From Streptomyces sp. CA-278952 (GTDB lineage: Bacteria; Actinomycetota; Actinomycetes; Streptomycetales; Streptomycetaceae): 64,000 bases of DNA. A program made the translations under genes and the position numbers. Under the pieces are notes generated by a model, which saw nothing but the letters and a program-made list of their open reading frames with translations, was not told the origin of the DNA and ran no database searches. The stretch covers positions 4,898,001-4,962,000 of the forward strand of contig NZ_CP112880.1 of assembly GCF_028747205.1 (NCBI RefSeq). Direction: 5' to 3'. Positions 4,088 to 52,431 of this stretch are shown here, one piece after another. Each line of letters opens with the position of its first letter. The first letter of the stretch is position 1.

Positions 4088-5149
4088 GTGAACGCCGAAG
4101 CCCCCGACGCCCCCGTCGAGACCCCCGCCGACCCCGGCCGCATCGTCCTGCTCACCGCCAGCCACCGGGTCGCGCCCGGCCTGCTGTCCTGGCCGGCCTG
4201 GCAGACGCTGCACGCCGCCGACCGGGTCCTCGTCCCCGGTCCGGACCACCCGCAGCTCCCCTACCTCCGTGAGGCGGGCGTAAGCGTCGAGCACGTTACG
4301 CCCTCCGCCGACGAACTGGTCGCCGACTGCGCGGGCGGCCGGACCGTCGTCGTCCTGGCCGGCGGCGAGGGCGACAGCCGCCTGACGGACGGCCTGGCCC
4401 GGCTCGGCGGCTCGGGCCGGGTGGCCATGCCGGACCTGGAACTGCTCCCCGGCTCCTACGACCTGCCCGGGGCCCGCCTGCTGGACCTGGTCCAGGTCAT
4501 GGACCGGATCCGCCGCGAGTGCCCCTGGACCTCGCGGAAGACCCACCGGGGCCTCGCCAAGTACGCCATCGAGGAGGCGTACGAACTGGTCGAGGCGATC
4601 GAGGACGGCGACCGGGACGAACTGCGCGAGGAGCTCGGCGACGTCCTGCTCCAGGTCGTCTTCCACTCCAGGATCGCCGAGGAAGGCCGCCCGGAGGACG
4701 GGGCGGAGCCCTTCGCCATCGACGACGTCGCGGGCGGCCTCGTCGACAAGCTGATCCACCGCCACCCGCACGTCTTCGGCGACGAGAGCGCCGAGACCCC
4801 CGAGGACGTCCACGCGCACTGGCTGCGCACCAAGGCGATCGAGAAGCAGCGGACCTCGGTCACCGAAGGCGTCCCCCTGGGCCAGCCCGGCCTGGCCCTC
4901 GCCGCGAAGCTCGCGAGCCGCGTCCGTACGGCGGAGCTCGACGTCCCCCTCCCCACGGGCGACACCATCGGCTACGAACTCCTGGCCCTCGCCGTACGCG
5001 CCGAGGCGAACGGCGTCGACCCGGAGACCGCCCTGCGCGCCGCCGCCCGCGCCTACCGCGACGCGATCCTGGCGGCGGAGGGCGGGGCGGAGCACGCCGG
5101 GAAGCTGCGGGAAGACGTCGGTCCGCCGACCGATACCGTCAAGGAGTGA
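4088..5149 (+). CDS. mazG: MazG-type nucleoside triphosphate pyrophosphohydrolase
   Basis: A 353-residue protein. The C-terminal two thirds carries the MazG helical fold that hydrolyses (d)NTPs or damaged nucleotides to monophosphate and pyrophosphate. The metal-binding pattern is visible as EEAYELVEAIE and, further on, REELGDVLLQVVFH. The N-terminal ~130 residues resemble a degenerate tetrapyrrole-methylase-type domain fused in many actinobacterial MazG proteins; I see no clear SAM-binding Gly-rich loop there. The start is GTG 4088. Its TGA overlaps the GTG of the P450 gene (AAGGAGTGA), so the ribosome-binding site for the P450 lies inside the mazG end. Confidence 0.9.
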   Translation: MNAEAPDAPVETPADPGRIVLLTASHRVAPGLLSWPAWQTLHAADRVLVPGPDHPQLPYLREAGVSVEHVTPSADELVADCAGGRTVVVLAGGEGDSRLTDGLARLGGSGRVAMPDLELLPGSYDLPGARLLDLVQVMDRIRRECPWTSRKTHRGLAKYAIEEAYELVEAIEDGDRDELREELGDVLLQVVFHSRIAEEGRPEDGAEPFAIDDVAGGLVDKLIHRHPHVFGDESAETPEDVHAHWLRTKAIEKQRTSVTEGVPLGQPGLALAAKLASRVRTAELDVPLPTGDTIGYELLALAVRAEANGVDPETALRAAARAYRDAILAAEGGAEHAGKLREDVGPPTDTVKE

Positions 5150-6489
5150 ACGACAGCCCCGCCCCCCGCACCCCCGAGCCCTCCGCCTGCCCCCACAGCG
5201 CCGCCCCGAGCGAGGCCGTCCCGGCGGCCCCCGGCCCCGAACTCTTCACCTGGGAGTTCGCCACCGACCCCTACCCCGCCTACGCCTGGCTCCGCGAGCA
5301 CCGCCCCGTGCACCGCACCGCGCTGCCCAGTGGGGTCGAGGCCTGGCTCGTGACCCGGTACGGGGACGCCAAGGAGGCGCTCGCCGACGCGCGGCTCTCC
5401 AAGAACCCGGCCAACCACGCCGAGTCGCCGCACGCCAAGGGGAAGACGGGGATCCCGGGGGAGCGCAAGGCGGAGCTGATGACGCATCTGCTCAATATCG
5501 ACCCGCCGGACCACACCCGGCTGCGCCGGCTCGTGTCCAAGGCGTTCACCCCCCGCCGGGTCGCGGAGTTCGCGCCCCGCGTGCAGGAGCTGACGGACCG
5601 GCTCATCGACGACTTCGTGGAGAAGGGGAACGCCGATCTCATCCACGACTTCGCCTTCCCGCTCCCCATCTACGCCATCTGCGACCTGCTCGGCGTCCCC
5701 GAGGAGGACCAGGACGACTTCCGGGACTGGGCGGGCATGATGATCCGGCACGGCGGCGGGCCGCGCGGCGGGGTCGCCCGGTCGGTGAAGAAGATGCGCG
5801 GCTACCTCGCCGAACTCATCCACCGTAAAAGGGAGAACCCGGGCGACGACCTGATCTCCGGGCTGATCCGGGCCAGCGACCACGGCGAGCACCTCACGGA
5901 GAACGAGGCGGCCGCCATGGCGTTCATCCTCCTGTTCGCCGGGTTCGAGACGACGGTCAACCTCATCGGCAACGGGACCTACGCGCTCCTGCGCCACCCC
6001 GAGCAGCGCGCCCGGCTGGAGGCCTCCCTGGCGGCGGGGGAGCGCGACCTGCTGGCCACCGGGATCGAGGAGCTGCTCCGGTTCGACGGGCCCGTCGAGA
6101 TGGCGACCTGGCGGTACGCCACCGAGGCGCTGACCCTGGGCGGCGAGGAGATCGCCGCCGGGGACCCCGTACTGGTGGTGCTGGCGGCGGCCGACCGCGA
6201 CCCGGAGCGGTTCACGGATCCGGACACCCTGGACCTTGCGCGGCGTGACAATCAGCACCTCGGATACGGACACGGCATCCACTACTGCCTGGGAGCGCCG
6301 CTGGCCCGGCTGGAGGGGCAGACCGCGCTGACCACCCTGTTGAAACGCCTTCCCGACCTGCGACTTGCGGGAGAACCTGGCGATTTGCGCTGGCGTGGCG
6401 GGCTCATCATGCGTGGACTGCGCACCCTTCCGGTCGCGTTCGAGCCGGGTAGCCGATCCGAAAAAAGTGACACAGTGTCAACTCCGTGA
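5146..6489 (+). CDS. Cytochrome P450
   Basis: A 447-residue class I bacterial P450. Visible features: the I-helix oxygen-activation motif AGFETT, the K-helix ELLR within IEELLRFDGP, and the heme-binding loop GYGHGIHYCLG with thiolate ligand Cys381, where Tyr replaces the usual Phe at the start of the loop. It is soluble with no membrane anchor, so it needs separate ferredoxin and reductase, which are not nearby. The start GTG 5146 overlaps the mazG stop and is preceded by AAGGAG. Substrate unknown; no biosynthetic partner genes are adjacent. A perfect BldD-type box lies at its 3' end. Confidence 0.93.
   Translation: MNDSPAPRTPEPSACPHSAAPSEAVPAAPGPELFTWEFATDPYPAYAWLREHRPVHRTALPSGVEAWLVTRYGDAKEALADARLSKNPANHAESPHAKGKTGIPGERKAELMTHLLNIDPPDHTRLRRLVSKAFTPRRVAEFAPRVQELTDRLIDDFVEKGNADLIHDFAFPLPIYAICDLLGVPEEDQDDFRDWAGMMIRHGGGPRGGVARSVKKMRGYLAELIHRKRENPGDDLISGLIRASDHGEHLTENEAAAMAFILLFAGFETTVNLIGNGTYALLRHPEQRARLEASLAAGERDLLATGIEELLRFDGPVEMATWRYATEALTLGGEEIAAGDPVLVVLAAADRDPERFTDPDTLDLARRDNQHLGYGHGIHYCLGAPLARLEGQTALTTLLKRLPDLRLAGEPGDLRWRGGLIMRGLRTLPVAFEPGSRSEKSDTVSTP
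6468..6480. promoter_or_regulatory. BldD-type operator (13-bp palindrome)
   Basis: The sequence TGACACAGTGTCA is a perfect palindrome around a central A. It fits the BldD consensus as I recall it (TnACnC(A/T)GnGTnA) at every specified position. It sits in the last codons of the P450 gene, about 200 bp upstream of the Rpf/LysM gene start at 6676. BldD with c-di-GMP represses developmental genes during vegetative growth, so repression of the muralytic enzyme is the natural reading, though no binding data are available here. Confidence 0.6.
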
Positions 6490-6675
6490 CTTTCACGTGA
6501 TCTGGGCTGCATCGACTTGTGACACACGTTCGAGTCCCGCTAGGTTCACGGTTCGACGCGTCGGTCGCACCTTGCTCACGCGTCACTTGTGCTCCGAAGC
6601 AGCACGGAGTCCGGCACGGAATCCGCTGCGCGGCGCTCAGGTCACTCGCTTGTCAGTCGCACGGAAGGCATACTC

Positions 6676-7746
6676 ATGGGCTCCGCGAACGGCAGACACC
6701 GCCGCCCTCGTCAGGCACCCGCCCTCATCGTCGCCGCGGGCGTGACGGGATCGGCCATCGCCATCCCCCTGCTCGGCGCCGGCGGTGCGCAGGCGGCCGA
6801 GGCCACCACCTGGGACCGGGTCGCCGAGTGCGAGAGCGGCGGCATGTGGAGCGCCGATCTCGGCAACGGCTACTACGGCGGGCTCCAGTTCTCGCAGGAG
6901 ACCTGGTCGGCGTACGGAGGCGCGGCGTTCGCGCCCCGCGCCGACCTCGCCAGCCGCTCGCAGCAGATCTCCGTCGCCGAGAAGGTCCTGGGCGACCAGG
7001 GCCCGAAGGCGTGGCCCAGCTGTGCGGTGATCTCCGGTCTCGCGGTGGACGGCAGTCTGCCCGGCGTCGACCCGGGCACCTCGCCGTCCACGGACCCGTC
7101 GGCCGACCCGTCCGCCGATCCGTCGGCGGACCCTTCGGCCGACCCGGCCCCCACCCCGACCGACGAAGCGGACGCAACCGGTGAATACGGTGAATCACGT
7201 GAAACGGGCAAGGGTGAGAAGGGTGATGAGGCGGACAAGAGCGGTAGTGGTGGCGCGGAGAAGGGGAGCGGGACTCCCGACTCCTCGGTGACGCCCTCCG
7301 CCCCGCCCGCCTCCGACGCCCCCGACGCCTCGGACCCCTCCACCGCCCCCGACGCCTCGACGGGCGAGGGCGACGGCAAGGGAGGCAAGCACCGGGGCGC
7401 CCCCGCGCCCGAGGAGGCCGACGGGGGCCGGAAGGACGGCCCCCGTGATTCCGGCCGGCACGCATCGCGCGGCGAAGGCGACGCGCGGGACGGTGGCGCG
7501 GCGGCCGCCGACGGGTACACGGTGCGGCCCGGGGACAACCTCTGGGCGATCGCCGACGCCCAGGAGATCCCCGGCGGCTGGACCGGCCTGTACGAGACGA
7601 ACAAGGACCTCCTGGGCTCCGACCCGGACCTGATCCTGCCCGGCCAGAACCTGGACCTGCGCCTGGACCGCGGTGCGGGCGAGGACGCGGACCCGGCCGC
7701 ACCGGAGGGTGCCGAGACGTCCGCCGGGGCGCCCGCCGCCAACTGA
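6676..7746 (+). CDS. Resuscitation-promoting-factor-like transglycosylase with LysM (RpfC-like)
   Basis: A 356-residue secreted cell-wall lytic enzyme. Signal peptide about residues 1-41, ending GAQA-AEA. The Rpf/transglycosylase domain spans about 44-120 with catalytic Glu53 in ECESGG and the signature [12 protein letters not shown] long low-complexity linker (about 125-278) begins with ADPS tetrads and is rich in Ser, Asp and Gly. A LysM peptidoglycan-binding domain (279-328) starts YTVRPGDNLW. Muralytic Rpf enzymes help spore germination and growth. By synteny this corresponds to the gene I recall as rpfC (SCO3098) in S. coelicolor. It is a tandem paralogue of the gene at 8224. Start ATG 6676; a BldD box lies 200 bp upstream. 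Confidence 0.9.
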   Translation: MGSANGRHRRPRQAPALIVAAGVTGSAIAIPLLGAGGAQAAEATTWDRVAECESGGMWSADLGNGYYGGLQFSQETWSAYGGAAFAPRADLASRSQQISVAEKVLGDQGPKAWPSCAVISGLAVDGSLPGVDPGTSPSTDPSADPSADPSADPSADPAPTPTDEADATGEYGESRETGKGEKGDEADKSGSGGAEKGSGTPDSSVTPSAPPASDAPDASDPSTAPDASTGEGDGKGGKHRGAPAPEEADGGRKDGPRDSGRHASRGEGDARDGGAAAADGYTVRPGDNLWAIADAQEIPGGWTGLYETNKDLLGSDPDLILPGQNLDLRLDRGAGEDADPAAPEGAETSAGAPAAN

Positions 7747-41950: not shown

Positions 41951-42319
41951 ATGGACCGCGGGACGGTCGGCAGTGCTAACCGGGGTCGACTTCAGGTCGA
42001 GGCCCGGACGGAGGGGCGCAGCGAGGTCGTGACGCCGGTGGGTGAGCTCGACCACCACACCGCTGATCTTCTGCGCGAGCCCCTGGAGAGTGCGGTCGAG
42101 CAGGGGCGGTCGCGCCTGGTGGTCGACTGCTCTCGGCTGGACTTCTGCGACTCCACCGGGCTGAACGTCCTGCTCGGCGCCCGCCTCAAGGCGGAGGCGG
42201 TCGGCGGAGGGGTTCATCTGGCCGGAATGCTGCCCGTCGTGGCGAGGGTGTTCGAGATCACCGGCGCGGAGGCGGTCTTCACCGTCCACGCCACGCTCGA
42301 AGAGGCCCTGGCCACCTGA
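41951..42319 (+). CDS. STAS-domain anti-sigma factor antagonist
   Basis: A 122-residue SpoIIAA/RsbV-type protein. The conserved phosphorylatable Ser is in DFCDSTGLNVLLGARL, preceded by the strand LVVDCSRLDF. In the partner-switching scheme the unphosphorylated form binds the anti-sigma kinase and frees the sigma factor. ATG 41951 follows GAAGAGGGACAGGC. Divergent from the sigma gene and 202 bp upstream of the anti-sigma gene in the same direction. Confidence 0.92.
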   Translation: MDRGTVGSANRGRLQVEARTEGRSEVVTPVGELDHHTADLLREPLESAVEQGRSRLVVDCSRLDFCDSTGLNVLLGARLKAEAVGGGVHLAGMLPVVARVFEITGAEAVFTVHATLEEALAT

Positions 42320-42521
42320 CCCGGCATGAGCGTGCGACCGCGGATGTCCCCGATGACGGCCGTGTCACGCGATCGTGTGCCTCAAGTGGGTGTTGTTGCG
42401 ACACGGCAGGGCAGGAGACACCCCGGCGGCGCCCCGCAAGGGCTCCGGCACACTCGGTAACTGATCACTATCTGTTGAACGGCGACATGGCGACATGGCG
42501 AATCGGTGAGGTGAAGCGCTG

Positions 42522-43013
42522 ATGAGCACCACCCGGCAGCATCCGCCGGGCGACCTCGGTCGCGAGCCGGATGGAACGGGCGCAGCCTCGACCGTCCCGG
42601 CCGAGCGGCAGTGGCGCACGCTCTCACTCGGGCAGGCCAACGGCATTGTTCCGACGGCCCGTGACTTCGCCCGGCAGGCGCTGCACGACTGGGGCTGGCT
42701 CCCGGCGTCCACCGCGGACCGCAGGGCCGCCGCCGAGGACGTCCTGCTGGTCGTCTCCGAGCTCGTGACGAACGCCTGTCTGCACGCGGAAGGCCCCGAG
42801 GAGCTCCGGATCGGCCACACGCCCAAGGTGCTGCGGGTGGAGGTCGTCGACCGGGGAGCCGGTCAGCCCGCGCCCCGTACGCCGCACCGTGCCGGTCGGC
42901 CCGGTGGGCACGGCATGTTCATCGTGCAGCGACTCTGCCTCGACTGGGGCGTCCTGCGCACTCCGGACGCGCCCGGCAAGACCGTCTGGGCGGAGCTCGC
43001 CGCCCCGGCCTAG
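42522..43013 (+). CDS. ATP-binding anti-sigma factor (RsbW/SpoIIAB-like HATPase)
   Basis: A 163-residue HATPase_c_2 domain protein. The N-box is VVSELVTNACLHAEG. The G1 region is VVDRGAGQPAP, then HGMFIVQRLCLDWGV for the second ATP-binding loop. It can bind the sigma factor and phosphorylate the STAS antagonist. ATG 42522 follows GGTGAAGC. With its neighbours it forms a complete sigma, antagonist and anti-sigma partner-switching set. Confidence 0.92.
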   Translation: MSTTRQHPPGDLGREPDGTGAASTVPAERQWRTLSLGQANGIVPTARDFARQALHDWGWLPASTADRRAAAEDVLLVVSELVTNACLHAEGPEELRIGHTPKVLRVEVVDRGAGQPAPRTPHRAGRPGGHGMFIVQRLCLDWGVLRTPDAPGKTVWAELAAPA

Positions 43014-43120: not shown

Positions 43121-43234
43121 TTCCCTCCATCAGGCCCCGGGCGTACCTTGAGCGCCAAATCTGATGTGCCGTCAGTAATGTGCGCCCGTACGGGTCGTGG
43201 CGCGCGGCGGCGTCCGGCATGAGGGGAACACGAG

Positions 43235-43957
43235 GTGTCGAACCAGAAGCGGACCACTCTCGCGCTGGCGGCTGCGCTGGCGGGCTCGATCGTGGTCGCG
43301 GGCGCGCCCGCCGCGCACGCCGAGGTCGTGGACGTCAACTACCAGTGCGTGACGCCCATCGGACCCAAAGGGGCGGTCTCGCCCATCGATATCAAGAGCG
43401 TGCAGAGCGGCGACGGCTACAAGCTCACCATGTCCTTCCAGAAGGGCGTCTCCTCCAGCCCGGTCGAGCTGGGCAAAGGGGCCATGAACCCGAGCGCCGT
43501 GATCGAACTGGGCGGCGCGGAGCAGGGGAAGGTCCAGGTCACAGGCCCGGCGAACAGCGAGGCGATTCCGGCCAACGCCCCGATCAAGATCAGCGACCTG
43601 TCGGGGACGTACACCCCGAAGAAGAGCGGCAAGGTCACCTTCACGGCCGGTGTCCTCACCATCAAGGCCCTCGGTACGACCACCACCTGTACGCCGAAGA
43701 ACAGCCCCGGCCCCTCCCTCGAACTCGACGTCCAGGCGGCGGGCGGTTCGTCGGACGGCGGCTCCGCCGACGGCGGTTCGACGGGCGGCGCGTCCACCGG
43801 AGGTTCGACCGGCGGCGCTTCGGGCGGCGGTGAGCTGCCCCGCACCGGCCCGCTGGACTCGGCGGCGGCGCTCGGCACGCTCGGCGGCACCGTGCTGCTG
43901 AGCGGGGCGGCCGGAGTGCTCTGGCTGACCCGGCGAGGACAGCGCTCCGCGGGCTGA
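43235..43957 (+). CDS. Sortase-anchored surface protein (LPRTG)
   Basis: A 240-residue wall-anchored protein. Signal peptide about 1-29 (ends AHA-EVV). One beta-rich domain (about 30-165) starts VDVNYQCVTPIGPKGA and ends TTTTCTPKN, so its two Cys probably form a disulfide. A Gly/Ser spacer of GGSTGGAS-type repeats follows, then the sortase motif LPRTG (201-205), a TM helix and a basic tail. The domain is clearly homologous to the second domain of the protein at 46222. GTG 43235 follows GAGGGGAACACGAG. First gene of a four-gene surface operon; function unknown. Confidence 0.85.
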   Translation: MSNQKRTTLALAAALAGSIVVAGAPAAHAEVVDVNYQCVTPIGPKGAVSPIDIKSVQSGDGYKLTMSFQKGVSSSPVELGKGAMNPSAVIELGGAEQGKVQVTGPANSEAIPANAPIKISDLSGTYTPKKSGKVTFTAGVLTIKALGTTTTCTPKNSPGPSLELDVQAAGGSSDGGSADGGSTGGASTGGSTGGASGGGELPRTGPLDSAAALGTLGGTVLLSGAAGVLWLTRRGQRSAG

Positions 43958-44018
43958 GACCGGCACGGTCGGCACGGTCCAGCACAGCATCGCCGCCGGA
44001 AGGCAGAGGAGCCGCCCC

Positions 44019-45077
44019 ATGTCGCCACCCACCCCGCGCCTCCGCCGGGCGCTGCTCGTCCTCACGGCGGTGCTCGCCGCGCAGCTGTGCGCGCTCACCC
44101 CCCTCCCGGCCGCCGCGCACGCCTCGGCCGAGACCGCCGCCCGGGCCGAGGCCGCAGCTCCGGCCGACACCGCCGTTCCGGCCAAGACCGCCGCCCCAGC
44201 CGACACCACCCGGGCCCATGCGGACGGCCCGGCGGGCTGGACGGCCAGGCCTGCCGGCCCGGGCGCCGACCGGGACGCCCGGCCGTACGTCTACCTGGAG
44301 GGCACCCCCGGCACGGCCCTCCAGGACCGTCTCGCGGTGACCAACTCGGGCCGCGACCCGCTGACCGTACGGCTACGGGGCGACGGCCGGGCCGGGGCCT
44401 GGATCGGGTTCGCGGCGGACACCGTCACCGTCCCGGCCCGGACCCGCGCCGAGGTGCCGCTCGCCCTCACGGTGCCGCCCGACGCGGTCCCCGGCGACGC
44501 CTCCGGCTGGGTCGTGGCCGACGACGGGGACGAGGAGATCCGCGTACCGGTCCGGGTCCGGATCGGCGGTCCGACGCTGGCGGCGCTCACCGTCGAGGAC
44601 GTCGAGATATCCGGCGGGACCATCCGGTACGCCCTGGTCAACCGGGGCAACGCGATGCTGGAGCCCCGGCTCGCGGTACGCGCCGACGGGATGTTCGGCA
44701 CGCCGCTGGACCGCCCGGAACGGCCCCTGCCGCTGGAGCTGGCCCCCGGCCGGCGGGTGGAGCGGACCGAACCCTGGCCCGACGCCCCGCTGCTGGACAC
44801 GGTCACCGTACGGCTGCGCGTCACCGCCCCGGGGGGCGCCCGCGACGAGGCCGAGGCCTCGGCGACGTACGTCCCGGTGGCCCCGGCCGTCGGCGCCGGG
44901 CTGCTGGTCCTCGGCGCCCTGGCCCTGCTCGGCTCCGGCGCGTACCGGCGGCGACGCGTCCGGCCGGGCGACCCCGAACCGGCGGCCGCGGAATCGGCCG
45001 ACGACCGGCGACCGACCACAGAGACGAGGCCCTCGGTGAAGGCGGGGCCCCTGGTGAAGGCGGGAGCGGAATCGTGA
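44019..45077 (+). CDS. Secreted, membrane-anchored protein with DUF916/COG1470-like extracellular domain
   Basis: A 352-residue protein. Signal peptide about 1-33. An Ala/Thr/Pro-rich segment follows, then an extracellular beta region beginning YVYLEGTPGTALQDRLAVTN, with VPARTRAEVPLALTVPPDAVPGD and GGTIRYALVNRGNAMLEP. One TM helix lies near residues 284-304 and the tail is basic. The domain order resembles the DUF916-type partner proteins of WxL surface systems in Firmicutes. ATG 44019 follows AGAGGAG. Its stop overlaps the next start (GTGA). Family relation is from memory. Confidence 0.75.
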   Translation: MSPPTPRLRRALLVLTAVLAAQLCALTPLPAAAHASAETAARAEAAAPADTAVPAKTAAPADTTRAHADGPAGWTARPAGPGADRDARPYVYLEGTPGTALQDRLAVTNSGRDPLTVRLRGDGRAGAWIGFAADTVTVPARTRAEVPLALTVPPDAVPGDASGWVVADDGDEEIRVPVRVRIGGPTLAALTVEDVEISGGTIRYALVNRGNAMLEPRLAVRADGMFGTPLDRPERPLPLELAPGRRVERTEPWPDAPLLDTVTVRLRVTAPGGARDEAEASATYVPVAPAVGAGLLVLGALALLGSGAYRRRRVRPGDPEPAAAESADDRRPTTETRPSVKAGPLVKAGAES

Positions 45078-46225
45078 CGCGGCAGCCCGGCCCCCGAGCC
45101 TCCCGGCGCACCACGTCGCCCGTCCTCCTGCTCCTGGCGGCCACCCTCCTGGCCCTCCTGCCCGCCCTGTCCGTCCTGGCGGCACCGGGCGCGCGGGCGG
45201 CCGACGGCGACCCCGCCGTCAGCCTGTCCAAGAAGGAGGCGGGCAAGGGCGGAGAGATCACCGTCAGCGGCGACGGCTGGCGCGCGGAGGCGTTGCTGAT
45301 GCTGCTGATCTGCGGTCAGTCCACTCCGGAGCGGGGCGTGGTCGGCGGCACCAACGCCTGTGCCAACGCCGACGGCCGCGCCGTCACGACCGACAAGAAG
45401 GGCGCCTTCAGTAAGAAGCTGCCGGTCAGCGAACCGCCGAAGCCGTGCCCCTGCGTGGTGCACGTCGCCACGGTGACCGGCGAACAGGCGCTGGCCGACG
45501 CGGTGTTCACGGTGGCGGGCCACCCCATCGCGGATCTGCCGAAGCAGACCGGCGGCGGAAAGCTCGCGGTGCTGGCCACCACCCGCCTGGAGGGCGACAG
45601 CTCCCTGCTCACCTGGTTCGGGGCCCCGCCGGCCCGCAGGCTCGTCTTCACTGTGGGCAATCTCGGCTCCGCGCCCGTCAAGGACCCGGTCTTCGAAATC
45701 GGCACCGCGCACGGCGTCTACGCGCCGCAGTGGGAGGAGCGCCAGTGGCGCGGCACGGTCGCCGCCGGCGCCAAGGCGCAGATCAAGCTGCCGGTCGAAC
45801 TGTCGGCGGGCGCGCACGGCGACTACCAGGTGTCCCTGCGGTACGGGCAGAAGGTGCTGGCCGAACAGCCGTGGGGGGTCGGCCGCCCCTGGGGCGTCAC
45901 GTTCTTCTGGGTCATGCTCTGCCTGGTCGTCCCGGCTGCCGTCTTCCGTATCGGTATGGCGGTCGTGGACAAGGTCCGGCCGCGTCCCGCCGGCTCGCAC
46001 CGTACGCGTACGCCGGCCACGCGACGGAGGCCGAAGCGGCGCGGGCGCACCGGCGAGGGCACGGCCACGGTCGCGGCCCCGGGCGCGACCCCCGAAGCGA
46101 CCACGACCACGAACGCCGCCACGACCACGAACGCCGCCACGACCACCGCCGTGCTGCCGTGGTTCACCCCGGATTCCGCACCGTCAGAGAACCGACCCCG
46201 ACCCACGACGAAGGGACAAGCGTGA
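45074..46225 (+). CDS. Secreted, membrane-anchored protein with neocarzinostatin-like domain
   Basis: A 383-residue protein. Signal peptide about 1-42 (ARA-ADG). The first extracellular domain (about 43-145) has VSLSKKEAGKGGEITVSGDGW and a pair of Cys regions, reminiscent of neocarzinostatin-type Ig-like folds. A second beta domain contains FTVGNLGSAPVKDPVFEIG. One TM helix lies near 276-298. The tail is Arg-rich and ends with three TTTNAA repeats (15-bp DNA units). Translationally coupled to both neighbours by GTGA overlaps. Likely part of the same surface complex. Confidence 0.75.
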   Translation: MTRQPGPRASRRTTSPVLLLLAATLLALLPALSVLAAPGARAADGDPAVSLSKKEAGKGGEITVSGDGWRAEALLMLLICGQSTPERGVVGGTNACANADGRAVTTDKKGAFSKKLPVSEPPKPCPCVVHVATVTGEQALADAVFTVAGHPIADLPKQTGGGKLAVLATTRLEGDSSLLTWFGAPPARRLVFTVGNLGSAPVKDPVFEIGTAHGVYAPQWEERQWRGTVAAGAKAQIKLPVELSAGAHGDYQVSLRYGQKVLAEQPWGVGRPWGVTFFWVMLCLVVPAAVFRIGMAVVDKVRPRPAGSHRTRTPATRRRPKRRGRTGEGTATVAAPGATPEATTTTNAATTTNAATTTAVLPWFTPDSAPSENRPRPTTKGQA

Positions 46226-47643
46226 GCACGCAACGGAGGATGAGCGCGGCCGGAGTCGCGCTGATGCTCGGCGGCGCGGGCATCCTGATGGCCGCGAGTC
46301 CGGCCCAGGCCGCCGAGGTCAGTTACGCGACGGAGTGCGTTCCGCCGCCGATCTCGGGACTGCCCGCGGTGCAGGGCACCACGAAGGTGGAGCTGACCGC
46401 GCCGGCCGAGGCGAAGGTGGGCGACGAGATCGAGGTCGTCTGGAAGACGGTCGAGGCCGCGTCCAAGAACCCGGACGTGCTGGATCTGGGAGCGGACACG
46501 GTCAAGCCGACCGGAACCGTCACCCTGGGCGGTTCGGCGAGCGGCGAGCTGAAACTGGAGGGCCCCCGGCAGAACCCGCCGATTCCCAAGAACAGCCCCA
46601 TGGTGCTGCCCGATATGAAGGGCACGCTCAAGCTGGAGACCGCGGGGGAGATCACCCTGACGCCGGGCGCGTACAACATCAACGTGTCCAAGCCGATCTC
46701 CACGGACACCAAGTGCGCGCCGAAGGAAGAAGTGGAGGCGGGGGCCACGATCAAGGTCACCGAGGGTGGCGGCTCCACCACGGGCGGCACGACGTCCGGC
46801 GGCACGACGTCCGGCGGTACGGTCAGCGGCGGCACGGACGCCGGAGGCACCTCCTCCGGCGGCGCCGACACCGGAGGGACCACGTCCGGCGGCACGGATT
46901 CGGGCGGCACGACGTCGGGTGGATCGGACGGCGGCGCGGACACCGGGGGCGCCGCGTCCGGCGGCAGCACCGGCGGCGGGGGCGGGGAGACCGACTTCCC
47001 CGGCAAGGAGGTGTCCGTCGCCTACGCGTGCAAGACCCCGATCGGGGACAAGAACGCCACCTCACCGGTCAGGATCAGCGCCAAGAAGAGCGGCGGCGAC
47101 TACGACCTGACGGTGGAGTTCAGCAAGTCCGTGATGGACAGCCCGATCGACATCCCGGCGGGCCAGGTGAAGCCGTCCATGGACGTCAAGCTCGGCGGGG
47201 CGGACAAGGGCACGGTCAAGGTCGAAGGGCCGGTGAACAAGGAGGTCATCAAGACCGGCGCCCCGATCGAGATCCCCGACCTCACCGGCACGTACAAGCC
47301 CGGCGCGAGCGGCAAGTCCACGCTCAGCCCCGGCGTCCTGACGGTGATGGCCGCCGGTACGACGACCACCTGCACCCCGCCCGCGGGCGTGGCCGCCTCC
47401 CTGGAGCTGGACACCTCCGCCCAGCCGGGCGGCGCGTCCGGAGGCAGCGGGAGCGGCGGCGCGACGGACTCCGGCGGAGCCGCGACGTCCGGCGGCACGG
47501 ACTCCGGTGGCGGCCTGGCCGCCACCGGGGCCGAGGACGACGGTGCGCTGAGGGCGCTCGGCCTGGTCGCCGGCACGGCGATCCTGCTGGGCGGCGCGGT
47601 GTTCACGTTCACCCCGTGGCGGAGGCTGCGCGGCGCCCGCTGA
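46222..47643 (+). CDS. Two-domain sortase-anchored surface protein (LAATG)
   Basis: A 473-residue wall protein. Signal peptide about 1-31. Two related beta domains (about 32-180 and 262-398) are joined by a long Gly/Ser/Thr linker of TSGG repeats. Domain 2 (VSVAYACKTPIGDKN ... TTTTCTPPAG) matches the single domain of the protein at 43235; domain 1 is a diverged copy. The C-terminus has LAATG (432-436), a class E sortase motif, then a TM helix and WRRLRGAR. GTG 46222 overlaps the preceding stop. Last gene of the surface operon, followed by a terminator. Confidence 0.85.
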   Translation: MSTQRRMSAAGVALMLGGAGILMAASPAQAAEVSYATECVPPPISGLPAVQGTTKVELTAPAEAKVGDEIEVVWKTVEAASKNPDVLDLGADTVKPTGTVTLGGSASGELKLEGPRQNPPIPKNSPMVLPDMKGTLKLETAGEITLTPGAYNINVSKPISTDTKCAPKEEVEAGATIKVTEGGGSTTGGTTSGGTTSGGTVSGGTDAGGTSSGGADTGGTTSGGTDSGGTTSGGSDGGADTGGAASGGSTGGGGGETDFPGKEVSVAYACKTPIGDKNATSPVRISAKKSGGDYDLTVEFSKSVMDSPIDIPAGQVKPSMDVKLGGADKGTVKVEGPVNKEVIKTGAPIEIPDLTGTYKPGASGKSTLSPGVLTVMAAGTTTTCTPPAGVAASLELDTSAQPGGASGGSGSGGATDSGGAATSGGTDSGGGLAATGAEDDGALRALGLVAGTAILLGGAVFTFTPWRRLRGAR

Positions 47644-47659
47644 GCCGGGAGTACGAGGT

Positions 47660-47698
47660 GGGGGCTCGCCCGGAGAACGCTTCTTCGGGCGAGCCCCC
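47660..47698 (+). terminator. Surface operon terminator
   Basis: GGGGGCTCGCCCG / CGGGCGAGCCCCC, a 13-bp stem with a 13-nt loop, 17 bp after the stop. Confidence 0.85.
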
Positions 47699-47869
47699 GT
47701 CATGCTCAGAACTTGCTCACATCACCCGGCGCGCCTTGCTCGCACAAGATCGACAAGGATAGGTTTCCTGTGCGTCTCTTCGCAGCAGCGAAGGGCATCG
47801 TCTGGGTGTGGCGCTGTCCGGCAGGCTTGACCACCTGCTGGTGCCGCACGGGTTGAGAAAAGGAACGAC

Positions 47870-48232
47870 ATGAACGTGACCTGGGGGAAGAAGGCTGCGA
47901 CGGGCGTGCTCGCCGGCCTCCTGATGACGTCCGGACTGACGCTGGCCACCGCCGCGCCCGCTGCGGCGGCCGGTGCGAAGTACACCTGCAAGGCGACGCC
48001 CAGCCTCTCGCTGGGGCGTCCGGTGTCGACCTCCGCCTGCAAGAAGTCCGCCAAGGGCAAGAGCGTCAAGAAGCACCGTGCCGTGCTCGTCTGCGATGTG
48101 GTGCGGGGTCGCGGAGCCGAGCACACCATCCCGTGGACGGTGAAGGGCAGCTGGAAGAAGCCCAGCCAGAAGTCCTCGGTGAAGTGCGGCTTCAGCAGCT
48201 TCCTGCGGAGCGTCAAGGTCGAGACCAAGTAG
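47870..48232 (+). CDS. Small secreted Cys-containing basic protein
   Basis: A 120-residue exported protein. Signal peptide about 1-34 (ends PAAAA). The mature ~86 residues are Lys/Ser-rich and hold four Cys (in KYTCKAT, TSACKKS, LVCDVV and VKCGFSS), likely two disulfides. Family not recognised. ATG 47870 follows AAAAGGAACGAC. It stands alone after the surface operon and could be a secreted partner, but it has its own promoter region. Confidence 0.75.
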   Translation: MNVTWGKKAATGVLAGLLMTSGLTLATAAPAAAAGAKYTCKATPSLSLGRPVSTSACKKSAKGKSVKKHRAVLVCDVVRGRGAEHTIPWTVKGSWKKPSQKSSVKCGFSSFLRSVKVETK

Positions 48233-48375: not shown

Positions 48376-49875
48376 CTACTTGACGTTGCCCATGAGAGCG
48401 CGGATCTTGCGTCCCGCCACTATGAAGGCGATGCCCGCCGCGACGGCCACGGCCGCCTGCAACGTGTAGTACGCGGCGTCGCCCAGCGGGGCGTTGAGCT
48501 TCGTGGTCCAGCCGTTCAGGGCGTTGCCCGTCGACGTGGCCAGGAACCACAGGCCCATGATCTGGCCCATGAACATCTTCGGCGCCAGCTTCGTGGACAG
48601 CGAAAGGCCGACCGGGGAGAGGCACATCTCGCCCATGGTCTGCGCCAGGTAGACGGCGAGCAGCCAGAAGACGGTGACCTTGCCGGTCTCGCTGTTTGCG
48701 GCGGCAGCGCCCGCCAGGCCCATGATGCCGAACGAGCCACCGATGAGGAGCATCGCCAGCGCGAACTTCATCGGCGTGCTGGGCTCACGGTTGCGCGTGG
48801 CCAGCTTGACCCAGATCGTCGCGAAGATCGGGGCCAGGATGATGACCAGTGCGGGGTTGACCGACTGCAGCCAGGAGGCCGGGAACTCCCAGCCGCCGAT
48901 GAAGCGGTCCGTCTTGTTGTCGGCGAAGATCGTCAGCAGCGATCCGGACTGGTCGTAGATCATCCAGAAGAGCACGGCCGTGATGAAGAACCACACGTAC
49001 GCCTTGATCTTCGGCCGGTCCTCCTTGGTGAGCGCCGGGTCCCGGAAGATCGTGATGAAGTAGACGACCGGCACGACGACGCCCAGAACGGCCAGGACGT
49101 TGACGATGTGCTCGATGTCGTACGTGCCCAGCGCCAGGTCGATCAGCAGCGCGGCGACCGCGACGCCGGACCACAGGGCCACCTTGCGCAGCACCTGCCG
49201 CCGCTCCTCGGGGGAGGCGGGCTTCGCGGGCAGCTTGCCGATGTCGCCGAGGTGCTTGGAGCCCAGCACGTACTGGATGACCGCGAAGGTCATACCCACA
49301 CCGGCGACACCGAAGCCGAGGTGCCAGTTGACGTTCTCACCGAGGTAGCCGACCAGCAGCGGAGCGGCGAAGCCACCGATGTTGATCGCCATGTAGAAGA
49401 GGGTGAAGCCGGCGTCACGGCGGGCGCTGGACTGGTTCTCGTAGAGCGCGCCCACCATCGCCGAGATGTTCGGCTTCAGCAGGCCCGTACCGACCGCGAT
49501 CAGCGCGAGGCCGAAGAAGAACGTGATGTCGCTCGGCAGCGCGAGCGCGAAGTGACCGAGTGCGATGACGATCCCGCCGACCAGTACGGCCTTGCGGGCG
49601 CCCCAGAGGCGGTCGGCGACCCAGCCGCCGGGCATCGCGGCCATGTAGACGACGGCGTTGTAGACACCGTAGATGGAGGCGGCGAGCGCCTCCCGGCCCT
49701 CCAGGGGGCCGTCGAGCACGGCGGCCACCAAGTACAGGGTGAGGATGGCGCGCATCCCGTAGAAGGAGAAGCGTTCCCACATCTCCGTCATGAACAGGGT
49801 GGCCATACCGCGGGGGTGGCCGAAGAAGGTCTTCTCGTCGGAACTCGGCGAGTCCTTCGTCAGGCTGGACGCCAT
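48376..49875 (-). CDS. POT/PTR-family proton-dependent oligopeptide transporter
   Basis: A 499-residue MFS-type peptide symporter with about 14 hydrophobic helices. The POT signatures are present: FMTEMWERFSFYGMRAILTLYL (ExxERFxYY-type motif in helix 1), GGWVADRLWGARKAV, and GTGLLKPNISAMVGALYE. It imports di- and tripeptides with protons. ATG 49875 follows AAGGATCGACC and removes the low-complexity N-terminal part of the longer frame. It is divergent from a two-component system, with a 487-bp region between that includes a minus-strand terminator-like leader. Confidence 0.93.
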   Translation of the reverse strand: MASSLTKDSPSSDEKTFFGHPRGMATLFMTEMWERFSFYGMRAILTLYLVAAVLDGPLEGREALAASIYGVYNAVVYMAAMPGGWVADRLWGARKAVLVGGIVIALGHFALALPSDITFFFGLALIAVGTGLLKPNISAMVGALYENQSSARRDAGFTLFYMAINIGGFAAPLLVGYLGENVNWHLGFGVAGVGMTFAVIQYVLGSKHLGDIGKLPAKPASPEERRQVLRKVALWSGVAVAALLIDLALGTYDIEHIVNVLAVLGVVVPVVYFITIFRDPALTKEDRPKIKAYVWFFITAVLFWMIYDQSGSLLTIFADNKTDRFIGGWEFPASWLQSVNPALVIILAPIFATIWVKLATRNREPSTPMKFALAMLLIGGSFGIMGLAGAAAANSETGKVTVFWLLAVYLAQTMGEMCLSPVGLSLSTKLAPKMFMGQIMGLWFLATSTGNALNGWTTKLNAPLGDAAYYTLQAAVAVAAGIAFIVAGRKIRALMGNVK

Positions 49876-50362
49876 GGTCGATCCTTGCTGGTCGGGACGC
49901 GACGCCTCGTGAGCTGTACGCGCCCGGTGGGGGGCAGCCGGCACCGGCGCGGCGTACCCCATCCCCACGCCTGAGGGGGACGTGCTCCGTGCGGCCGGGC
50001 TCCTGACGGAGATACGGCGGCGGAGCGGGGAAGAACCGCGTCGGGATCCACGCCCGTCGCGCGTCCTCGCGCTCCGGGCCCGGCTCACAGGTCATTCACT
50101 CAGGAGCCGGCGGGAACCGGCCCCGCACACAAAAGAGACCCTTGGCGCTCATGGCCGCCCAAAGGTCCTTGAGTAGTGCAACAGGCGTTGGGACACCATA
50201 CGACACGACACGGCAGGATATGGAAGGACTTGAGACATGGATCACAGGTCCCGGTGGAACCACACTCCCATATTCAAAGGTCTCCGTCCGCTTTGTGGCG
50301 CTGACCCGCAGGTGACGTCGTAGGCCTCACCTCGGACCCCCCGTCCGGACTACCATCAGCCC
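49876..50362. other. Divergent intergenic region with a terminator-like leader
   Basis: 487 bp without a convincing gene. It holds the promoters for the POT gene (leftward) and the response regulator (rightward). The most notable element is the hairpin at 50131-50172. Short frames on the minus strand (for example from 50095) lack good ribosome sites. Confidence 0.5.
50131..50172 (-). terminator. Intrinsic terminator/attenuator in the POT leader
   Basis: Read on the minus strand, GGACCTTTGGGCG pairs with CGCCAAGGGTC (one bulge) around a short loop and is followed at once by TCTCTTTTGTG, a classical U-tract. No gene ends here, because both neighbours point away. It lies about 255-295 nt upstream of the transporter start, so premature termination of its transcript is likely. 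Confidence 0.6.
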
Positions 50363-51040
50363 ATGACCCGTGTACTGCTCGCCGAGGACGACGCATCCAT
50401 CTCGGAGCCACTGGCCCGCGCACTGCGTCGGGAGGGCTACGAGGTCGAGGTCCGCCAGGACGGTCCGACCGCGCTCGACGCCGGACTCCAGGGCGGCATC
50501 GACCTGGTCGTCCTCGACCTGGGGCTGCCCGGGATGGACGGTCTCGAAGTCGCCCGCAGGCTCCGGGCCGGCGGCCACGCCATCCCGATCCTGGTCCTGA
50601 CGGCCCGCGCCGACGAGGTCGACACGGTCGTCGGCCTGGACGCGGGCGCCGACGACTACGTCACCAAGCCGTTCCGGCTCGCCGAGCTGCTCGCCCGGGT
50701 CCGCGCCCTGCTGCGCCGCGGGGCCTCCGAGCCCGTGCCGCAGCCCGCCACCCACGGGGTCAGGATCGACGTCGAGTCGCACCGGGCCTGGATGGGCGAG
50801 GAGGAACTCCAGCTCACCGCCAAGGAGTTCGACCTCCTGCGGGTCCTGGTCCGGGACGCGGGCCGGGTCGTCACCCGCGACCAGTTGATGCGCGAGGTCT
50901 GGGACACCACCTGGTGGTCCTCCACCAAGACCCTCGACATGCACATCTCCTGGCTGCGCAAGAAGCTCGGCGACGATGCCGCCAATCCGCGCTACATCGC
51001 CACCGTCCGGGGCGTCGGCTTCCGGTTCGAGAAGAGCTGA
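50363..51040 (+). CDS. OmpR/PhoB-family response regulator
   Basis: A 225-residue regulator. The receiver domain (1-115) has acidic pocket EDD (8-10), phospho-acceptor Asp in VVLDLGLPGMDG, the Thr in VLTARAD and Lys in VTKPF. The winged-helix DNA-binding domain (about 130-222) contains LTAKEFDLLRVLVRDAGRVVTRDQL and ends TVRGVGFRFE. It pairs with the kinase gene 125 bp downstream. Promoter region is shared with the divergent POT transporter, a possible target. Confidence 0.94.
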   Translation: MTRVLLAEDDASISEPLARALRREGYEVEVRQDGPTALDAGLQGGIDLVVLDLGLPGMDGLEVARRLRAGGHAIPILVLTARADEVDTVVGLDAGADDYVTKPFRLAELLARVRALLRRGASEPVPQPATHGVRIDVESHRAWMGEEELQLTAKEFDLLRVLVRDAGRVVTRDQLMREVWDTTWWSSTKTLDMHISWLRKKLGDDAANPRYIATVRGVGFRFEKS

Positions 51041-51049
51041 CGTACGAAA

Positions 51050-51102
51050 CCCCCATGCACCCGAAGCCTCCATGCATCCGAAGCCCCCATGCACCCTGAA
51101 GA
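51050..51102 (+). repeat. Three 16-18 bp tandem repeats between response regulator and kinase
   Basis: CCCCCATGCACCCGAAGC, then CTCCATGCATCCGAAG, then CCCCCATGCACCCTGAAG. Each copy carries an ATGCA core. An ATG in the first copy opens a 14-codon frame (51055 to a TGA near 51099). Confidence 0.8.
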
Positions 51103-51165
51103 CCGCTCCGGACACCACCCCGACGCGGGTGGCCACGCGCGTCCCGACGACCTGAAGAGGCGGGT

Positions 51166-52431
51166 ATGCGCCGCCGGCTGATCAACTCCACGCTCGCCGT
51201 GGTGCTCGTCGTCATCGCCGTCTTCGGCGTCTCGCTGGTGATCGTCGAGACGCGCACCATCAGCGCCAGCGCCCAGGAGAGCGTCGAGTCCGAGGCGCTC
51301 CGGCTGATCAGCGTGGTCGACAGCCGGCTGCTGGGCGCGGAGCGGATCAATCCCGGGGTGCTGGCCGAGCAGATCGACCCCAAGCGGTACGCCCTGGTCG
51401 AGATCCCCGGCCGCGAGCCCATCGCCGTCGGCGAGCGGCCCGTCGGCAGCGTCCTGCGCGCCGTCGAGACCGGAGAGCAGGGCGAGACCGTCACCGTCGA
51501 GGAGTCCCGCTCGGCCGTCACCCGCGAGGTCGGGCGCACGCTCCTGATCATCGGCGCGGTGGCGCTGCTGGCGATCGTCTCGGCCGTGCTGCTCGCCGTA
51601 CGCCAGGCGAACCGGCTGGCCTCCCCGCTCACCGACCTCGCCGAGACCGCGGAGCGCCTCGGCTCCGGGGACCCCCGTCCGCGCCACAAGCGGTACGGGG
51701 TGCCCGAGCTGGACCGGGTCGCCGACGTCCTGGACTCCTCGGCCGAGCGGATCGCCCGGATGCTGACCGCCGAACGCCGGCTCGCCGCGGACGCCTCCCA
51801 CCAACTGCGGACGCCGCTGACCGCCCTCTCCATGCGGATCGAGGAGATCTCCGTCACCGACGACCCCGACACGGTGAAGGAGGAGGCGAACATCGCCCTC
51901 ACCCAGGTCGAGCGCCTCACCGACGTCGTCGAACGGCTCCTGACGAACTCCCGCGACCCGCGCACCGGCTCCGCCGTCGTCTTCGACCTCGACGAGGTCG
52001 TCAAACAGCAGATCGAGGAGTGGCGCCCCGCCTACCGCAGCGCCGGCCGCGCACTGGTCTGCTCCGGAAAGCACGGACTGAAGGCCGTCGGCACCCCGGG
52101 CGCGGTCGCCCAGGTCCTGGCGGCGCTGATCGAGAACTCCCTCATGCACGGCGGCGGCACCGTCGCCCTGCGCACCCGGGTCACCGGCAACCAGGCGGTC
52201 ATCGAGGTCACCGACGAGGGCCCCGGCGTCCCCGCCGAACTGGGGGCGCGGATCTTCGAGCGGACCATCAGCGGCCGCAACTCCACCGGCATCGGCCTGG
52301 CCGTCGCCCGCGATCTCTCGGAGGCGGACGGCGGCCGGCTGGAGCTGCTCCAGCAGCACCCGGCGGTCTTCGCGCTCTTCCTCAGCCGGGTCCCGGTCGA
52401 CCGCAAGACTCCTGAGCGCCCGTTGCGCTGA
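51166..52431 (+). CDS. Sensor histidine kinase
   Basis: A 421-residue membrane kinase. TM1 (about 9-29), an extracytoplasmic sensor of about 95 residues, TM2 (about 126-147), then a HAMP region and an H-box ASHQLRTPLTALSMRIEE with the phospho-His. N-box is LAALIENSLMHGGG, G1 VTDEGPGVP, then the G2 region STGIGLAVARDLSEA. It autophosphorylates and signals to the upstream response regulator. ATG 51166 follows GAAGAGGCGG. Signal unknown. Confidence 0.93.
   Translation: MRRRLINSTLAVVLVVIAVFGVSLVIVETRTISASAQESVESEALRLISVVDSRLLGAERINPGVLAEQIDPKRYALVEIPGREPIAVGERPVGSVLRAVETGEQGETVTVEESRSAVTREVGRTLLIIGAVALLAIVSAVLLAVRQANRLASPLTDLAETAERLGSGDPRPRHKRYGVPELDRVADVLDSSAERIARMLTAERRLAADASHQLRTPLTALSMRIEEISVTDDPDTVKEEANIALTQVERLTDVVERLLTNSRDPRTGSAVVFDLDEVVKQQIEEWRPAYRSAGRALVCSGKHGLKAVGTPGAVAQVLAALIENSLMHGGGTVALRTRVTGNQAVIEVTDEGPGVPAELGARIFERTISGRNSTGIGLAVARDLSEADGGRLELLQQHPAVFALFLSRVPVDRKTPERPLR

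Follow-up and report, generated by a model that had tools for sequence, protein, structure and literature searches.

WxL surface systems are known from gut bacteria, and Streptomyces is a genus of soil organisms. Here we describe a four-gene operon in a 64,000-nucleotide stretch of the genome of Streptomyces sp. CA-278952 (contig NZ_CP112880.1, positions 4,898,001 to 4,962,000; hereafter the window, to whose numbering coordinates refer). The genome is 8.21 Mb in a single contig. We regard it as a new form of WxL-type cluster, anchored by sortase.

The Firmicute WxL clusters of Lactobacillales and Bacillales encode a small WxL protein, a large WxL protein, a WxLIP and often an LPxTG protein (PMC9772566, PMC10599100; these and the other papers are cited from excerpts). 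WxL systems are described as almost confined to these two orders and as tied to host attachment (PMC10599100, PMC9772566). More than 91% of WxL sequences are in Firmicutes (PMC9772566), so a minority elsewhere is already on record. For the first domain of WxLIP, a long hairpin loop is described whose predicted role is strand insertion into WxL; another loop of 20 residues, the buttressing loop, lies between the domains (PMC10599100). DUF916 genes have also been listed among the neighbours of a metal-binding domain (PMC12537917). A literature search combining WxL, WxLIP and DUF916 with Streptomyces or actinobacteria gave no title or abstract opening describing the operon, its function or Streptomyces WxL clusters. 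An earlier reading of the window from its letters alone (the sequence-only reading) could not match the cluster to a described system.

The operon covers positions 43235-47643, with all genes on the plus strand:

43235..43957, plus strand: gene 1, 240 amino acids; predicted secreted, with a single beta domain, a linker rich in Gly and Ser, and the sorting signal LPRTG
44019..45077, plus strand: gene 2, 352 amino acids; WxLIP homologue, two immunoglobulin-like (Ig-like) domains, C-terminal membrane helix, basic tail
45074..46225, plus strand: gene 3, 383 amino acids; predicted secreted, with a neocarzinostatin-like domain, a second domain resembling NEW3/NPCBM, a membrane helix at the C-terminal end and a long, presumably cytoplasmic tail
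46222..47643, plus strand: gene 4, 473 amino acids; predicted secreted, two beta domains with a Gly/Ser/Thr linker between them, LAATG sorting signal

Like the Firmicute clusters, the operon has a WxLIP-family membrane protein, one small one-domain and one larger beta protein, and LPxTG anchoring nearby. Unlike them, it has no detected WxL domain, carries sortase signals on both beta-domain proteins, adds a neocarzinostatin-like membrane protein (gene 3), and has shortened loops at the positions aligned with the hairpin and the buttressing loop. We think it probable, with some reserve, that the operon descends from a WxL cluster and that its sortase-anchored beta proteins are met at the membrane by the products of genes 2 and 3. 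The WxL wall anchor has apparently been replaced by sortase anchors, as judged from the protein sequences.

To place the operon among its relatives, named genomes were scanned with gene 3 as bait and 80 of 92 loci were kept; the locus counts therefore tell what accompanies gene 3. The 80 loci are from Streptomyces throughout, save one 'Actinobacteria bacterium', and S. anulatus and S. griseus are among the closest named gene 3 relatives; the S. griseus operon is locus L009. Genes 2 and 3 are present in all 80 loci, gene 4 in 79 and gene 1 in 77. The complete set was found in 76/80 loci, in the same order and on a single strand in all 76, and the remaining four (L014, L019, L053, L075) are cut by contig ends; the arrangement is therefore not due to chance, and the operon proposed in the sequence-only reading is real. 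In L071, one of the 76 complete loci, the gene 3 frame is broken.

The GTGA overlaps of genes 2-4, also part of that reading, are seen at both junctions in the window. Across related loci the gene 2/3 junction is GTGA in 69/78 and ATGA in 9/78, and the gene 3/4 junction is GTGA in 76/79, ATGA in 2/79 and CTGA in 1/79. In L023 and L064 genes 2 and 3 form a single open frame, either a natural fusion or a local indel.

An independent sample comprised 296 genomes of the class, including 31 of the genus (own genome counted). Operon-type gene 2 was found in 20 of these 31 genomes, 19 of which also gave beta-domain matches. Independent distribution of the four genes, which the sequence-only reading had named as a refuting outcome, thus finds mixed evidence: L183 (genome G187) lacks gene 2 but has the other three genes, and L184 (genome G262) has genes 2 and 3 but no beta-domain proteins.

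Gene 2 and the actinobacterial WxL clusters

Profile matches of its relatives together with the modelled fold support homology between gene 2 and the DUF916-type (WxLIP) proteins, a likeness already noticed in the sequence-only reading. The PF06030 (PGBD) profile matched 66/79 gene 2 relatives at E<=0.01, the best at 1.5e-12. In the model and its fold match, residues 3-218 form two tandem Ig-like domains, followed by a helix at residues 219-245, which is the WxLIP architecture. DUF3324 (HBD) was not among the families listed for the 79 relatives (E<=0.01); when folds were compared, the alignment did include the second domain. Genes 2 and 3 each encode a hydrophobic N-terminal stretch and one C-terminal helix. 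By a crude rule, a helix with a basic tail is present in 73/80 gene 2 and 80/80 gene 3 relatives, as expected of the secreted proteins with one transmembrane helix and a basic tail that the same reading had predicted.

Relatives of gene 2 are present in 89/296 sampled genomes of the class. We picked 60 non-operon comparison loci from a longer match list, favouring long matches, and searched them with a WxL profile built from eight neighbouring proteins and then iterated. This profile found a WxL domain at 53/60 of these actinomycete loci, and at 49/60 the WxL domain precedes the WxLIP domain on one and the same strand by no more than 400 nucleotides. The seven loci without a WxL hit are five with a purple-acid-phosphatase-like partner, all in one clade, and two cut by contig ends. 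On balance, actinobacteria have WxL-WxLIP clusters of their own.

Several of these loci have features of their own. A secreted purple-acid-phosphatase-like protein stands beside WxLIP in L159, L161, L162, L165 and L168 and ends in ..WLQ in 5/5 (assigned by Pfam on L165 only), and L127 encodes a fusion of a phosphatase with a WxL domain. WxLIP neighbours have varied head domains, namely HtaA (L130, L134), a metallophosphatase (L133) and an S15 peptidase (L135). Genomes G218, G101 and G183, of one family (f31), hold up to seven WxLIP relatives each.

The source genome has such a pair itself, at locus L122 (G000:C1:5631000-5643500, pair at 4754-7145, about 5635.8-5638.1 kb), which is among the 60 loci. 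Here a WxLIP relative (E 2e-67) comes after a 448-residue predicted secreted protein, and an Era-like GTPase gene lies just beyond the pair. The C-terminal part of the 448-residue protein matched the WxL profile at E 5e-44 and scored 16.2 against a cut-off of 25 with the Pfam WxL model (E 0.011); no LPxTG-like motif was found in this protein. Its N-terminal domain is homologous to the first domain of gene 4 (E 1.9e-28). Used alone as a phmmer query, that gene 4 domain retrieved 13 WxL-cluster proteins with E 3e-30 to 1.8e-10. Because L122 matches both gene 2 and gene 4 domain 1, two different components are common to the operon and the WxL cluster, and the upstream palindromes are also similar. 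Unlike the operon, L122 has two genes only (in the called stretch), a WxL C-terminus and a WxLIP loop of 39 residues.

The sequence-only reading had proposed an actinobacterial counterpart of the Firmicute WxL clusters. Its idea of WxL kinship is right as to ancestry, with gene 2 a WxLIP homologue in a related cluster. The word counterpart fits less well, since actinobacteria, this genome included, have WxL-WxLIP pairs themselves; the operon is better called a WxL-less, sortase-anchored derivative. The WxL profile gave no hit at E<=1 on the open reading frames of the 80 operon loci. With filters off, 156 gene 1 and gene 4 proteins gave 37 weak listings at E<=10, the best at 8.7 bits (E 0.02), which we did not count as a match.

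Two observations weigh against this account. The window's own gene 2 gave no match to the PF06030 profile that finds most of its relatives, and the actinobacterial WxL domains are mostly weak by Pfam. The Pfam WxL model matched 42/49 of the profile-found domains at E<=0.1 (best 4e-6); on nine whole neighbour proteins it gave five matches at E<=0.1, one of them over the cut-off (L123, 26.1 vs 25). A profile of the 49 WxL domains had no WxL chain of the PDB among the matches listed.

A quick tree was built from 140 relatives of gene 2, with the loop excluded and a midpoint root; L066, in which the loop anchor was misaligned, was left out. The WxL-type group of 55 used in the tree and loop counts includes L174 and L175, which are cut by contig ends so that a partner is not visible. 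The 80 operon-type rows form one clade (support 99), adjacent to the Streptomyces WxL-type clade (88) and nested in further WxL-type rows. Partner type requires two changes on this tree, and with the midpoint root WxL would have been lost once on the way to the operon.

By elimination, in an alignment with EfmWxLIP1, a conserved N-to-W segment of gene 2 appears to correspond to the WxL-inserting hairpin:

44343..44402, plus strand: gene 2 segment in which the WxL-inserting hairpin is presumed to lie, assigned by elimination; 19 residues from N to W

The N-to-W distance is 38-39 residues in 55/55 WxL-type rows and 38 in five phosphatase-type rows, and ranges from 16 to 48 in 81 operon-type rows. 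At 19 vs 38-39 residues, the window's gene 2 lacks the long WxL-inserting hairpin under this putative loop assignment. Loop length changed 27 times in 14.7 branch units inside the operon clade vs 2 times in 33.5 units outside it (binomial p 2.5e-12). For four other segments the rates per unit are 0.07, 0.54, 0.41 and 0.20 inside and 0.27, 0.72, 0.27 and 0.27 outside. The segment that aligns with the buttressing loop has 26 residues in 70/80 operon rows vs 35-41 in at least 47/60 WxL- and phosphatase-type rows; as assigned from this alignment, gene 2 has a shortened segment in place of the 20-residue buttressing loop. Faster loop change and a shorter segment inside the operon clade are the pattern expected of release from WxL binding. 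The length of the gene 2 loop that the alignment equates with this hairpin is thus no longer fixed.

Sortase substrates and the neocarzinostatin-like protein

The following domains and motifs were located in genes 1, 3 and 4:

43322..43735, plus strand: beta domain of gene 1 (VxYxCxTPIG ... TTTTCTP), from sequence comparison
43835..43849, plus strand: LPRTG sorting motif of gene 1, read from the sequence
46154..46174, plus strand: LPWFTPD tail motif of gene 3, conserved among relatives
46312..46764, plus strand: first beta domain of gene 4, homologous to the N-terminal domain of WxL proteins in other clusters
47008..47427, plus strand: second beta domain of gene 4, 131.6 bits against the gene 1 domain
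47515..47529, plus strand: LAATG sorting motif of gene 4, read from the sequence

That genes 1 and 4 share a beta domain, with two copies in gene 4, had been read from conserved ends and is borne out by comparison: the gene 1 domain scores 131.6 bits against the second and 46.4 bits against the first domain of gene 4. The model of the first domain has a pLDDT (predicted local distance difference test score) of 95.8. The two sorting tags also hold up among relatives, with a C-terminal LP[KQR]TG in 77/77 for gene 1 and LAxTG in 79/79 for gene 4. Both proteins have the features of sortase substrates, namely an LPxTG-like motif, a hydrophobic helix and a basic tail. The Pfam model Gram_pos_anchor matched 17/30 gene 1 relatives at E<=1 (best 1.2e-4).

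We found 11 sortase family matches in the source genome. The motif LAETG is recognised by SrtE (PMC10924467). Since the split between LP and LA motifs is complete, two different sortases most likely serve genes 1 and 4, and by their sorting signals the two products are most likely linked to peptidoglycan by two sortases. By description, gene 4 resembles the SCO1860-family LAETG proteins in being a Streptomyces LAxTG-type sortase substrate; one member of that family is reported as a Tat-dependent C-tail protein (PMC10924467).

The N-terminal domain of gene 3 is like the neocarzinostatin family (PF00960), which matched 33/33 gene 3 relatives at E<=1 (best 2e-7) and is present in the precomputed annotation of several close relatives. 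Unlike that family, gene 3 is membrane-anchored and has a second domain and a long C-terminal tail, and the window's copy is under the PF00960 cut-off (20.0 vs 25 bits) and far under the NCBIfam chromoprotein cut-off (29.7 vs 86). A PWF-centred tail motif, mostly LPWFTPD, is present in 78/80 gene 3 loci, the other two being cut (L019) or frame-broken (L071). PWF was not found in seven non-operon gene 3 relatives, and the source genome has a single match to a DNA pattern encoding PWFTPD. Relatives of gene 3 adjoin WxLIP in 7/60 non-operon loci (L123, L124, L125, L126, L130, L169, L173), so the association of gene 3 with WxLIP is probably older than the operon.

L123 (G220:C38, 289-7852) is a larger cluster with a WxL protein, WxLIP, a gene 3 relative and a protein with several transmembrane helices. 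It also encodes a further secreted protein that resembles gene 3 and has a C-terminal helix, and a member of the neocarzinostatin family that carries LPNTG.

Candidate regulatory elements and flanking genes

Three nucleotide elements were noted in and around the operon:

43160..43177, plus strand: imperfect palindrome TCTGATGTGCCGTCAGTA, candidate operator upstream of gene 1
46175..46192, plus strand: element TCCGCACCGTCAGAGAAC (also written TCCGCACCGTCWGAGAAC), within the gene 3 end and upstream of gene 4
47657..47701, plus strand: terminator-like hairpin directly 3' of gene 4, -41.3 kcal/mol

The palindrome CTGAYGNNNCGTCAG is present upstream of gene 1 in 72/77 loci; of the other five, four differ at one base and L050 at two. 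A matrix trained solely on sites upstream of gene 1 was applied to stretches of 500 bases. Among the 15 same-genus WxL loci listed, 10 had a score above 0 upstream of the WxL gene, the source genome included (17.1); two further same-genus loci, L163 and L171, scored 10 or less, and none of the other-genus WxL loci exceeded 10. Random 400-base stretches, drawn from the same loci and thus possibly including real palindrome sites, had a mean score of -18.1 (95th percentile -5.1, maximum 17.8). Genome-wide, CTGATGNNNCRTCAG has 11 sites (control 0). Two belong to the operon and the L122 WxL cluster, two lie inside called genes, and others are near AMP-binding (acyl-CoA-ligase-type), thiolase/P450, PorA and other genes. 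The similar sites make co-regulation of the operon and the L122 cluster a lead, not a result.

The TCCGCACC core of the element at 46175-46192 is present in 70/79 loci; its GCA codon is otherwise rare (5% of Ala codons). The core is kept where insertions part it from the gene 3 motif, and the element looks constrained as nucleotides.

Upstream of the operon, at 41951-43013, are STAS and HATPase genes, each present in 55/80 loci. Downstream, at 48376-52431, a POT transporter gene (77/80 loci) is followed by genes for a response regulator and a DraK-type histidine kinase. A small secreted protein is encoded at 47870-48232, after the operon, and is found there in 8/80 loci.

Proposed mechanism, rival explanations and significance

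We suggest that the products of genes 1 and 4 would be exported and linked to peptidoglycan by an LPxTG sortase and a class E (LAxTG) sortase, respectively. The products of genes 2 and 3 would stay in the membrane by their C-terminal helices and might be membrane-side docks or assembly partners that meet the other two. Homology and the absence of WxL rest on comparison; docking and function we infer, and a single complex of all four products is hypothetical. A fuller account is tentative and, in our view, somewhat less likely to be right than wrong. In it, WxL-WxLIP is regular in many actinobacteria, and in Streptomyces covalent anchoring by sortase took the place of strand insertion in one such cluster. 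The WxLIP homologue persisted and its WxL-binding hairpin was repeatedly lost; its present role, together with the neocarzinostatin-like partner, would be to dock beta-domain proteins linked by sortase to the bacterial membrane, under a regulator common with the remaining WxL cluster.

The same ancestry could also have led to no complex at all, gene 2 being a weakly constrained leftover, and the other three genes acting alone as surface proteins of wall and membrane and merely co-transcribed. The free variation in gene 2 loop length and the L183 operon lacking gene 2 would fit this, as would the low mean column identity of gene 2 relatives (41% in 39 rows, against 66% for gene 1 in 30, 61% for gene 4 in 39 and 55% for gene 3 in 33). 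A leftover would, however, hardly be expected in 80/80 gene 3 loci, with its own frame meeting gene 3 by GTGA or ATGA in 78, nor with 26 invariant columns among 39 relatives, and we consider this explanation unlikely, if still a serious competitor.

Genes 2 and 3 might instead encode transient, pilus-chaperone-like assembly chaperones for the sortase substrates, with no standing complex. This we regard as improbable: fold matches of the level seen say nothing on function, and the shortened loop of gene 2 in the window shows no evident donor strand. More improbable still is surface capture of a hydrophobic ligand by the neocarzinostatin-like domain of gene 3, with expression tied to lipid or sterol breakdown through the common operator. 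The family match in every gene 3 relative and the palindrome sites adjoining P450, thiolase, AMP-binding and PorA genes speak for it, but the window's gene 3 is below both family cut-offs, and there are just 11 sites, two of them inside called genes, with no regulator known. We thus retain descent from a WxL cluster, with genes 2 and 3 meeting the sortase-anchored proteins at the membrane.

WxLIP relatives in 89/296 class genomes and WxL partners at 53/60 loci, Streptomyces included, weaken host adhesion as the core function of WxL systems, and the same spread weakens the proposal that the WxLIP helix inserts in host membranes. If the conversion to sortase anchoring is true, it argues for a location of this helix in the membrane of the bacterium itself rather than in that of a host. 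The operon is a natural knockout, a WxLIP homologue without WxL, and offers a natural experiment on how such surface proteins are held. Its released loop gives a sharp, testable prediction of which part of WxLIP holds WxL, and the paired clusters within one tractable genus make that prediction testable.

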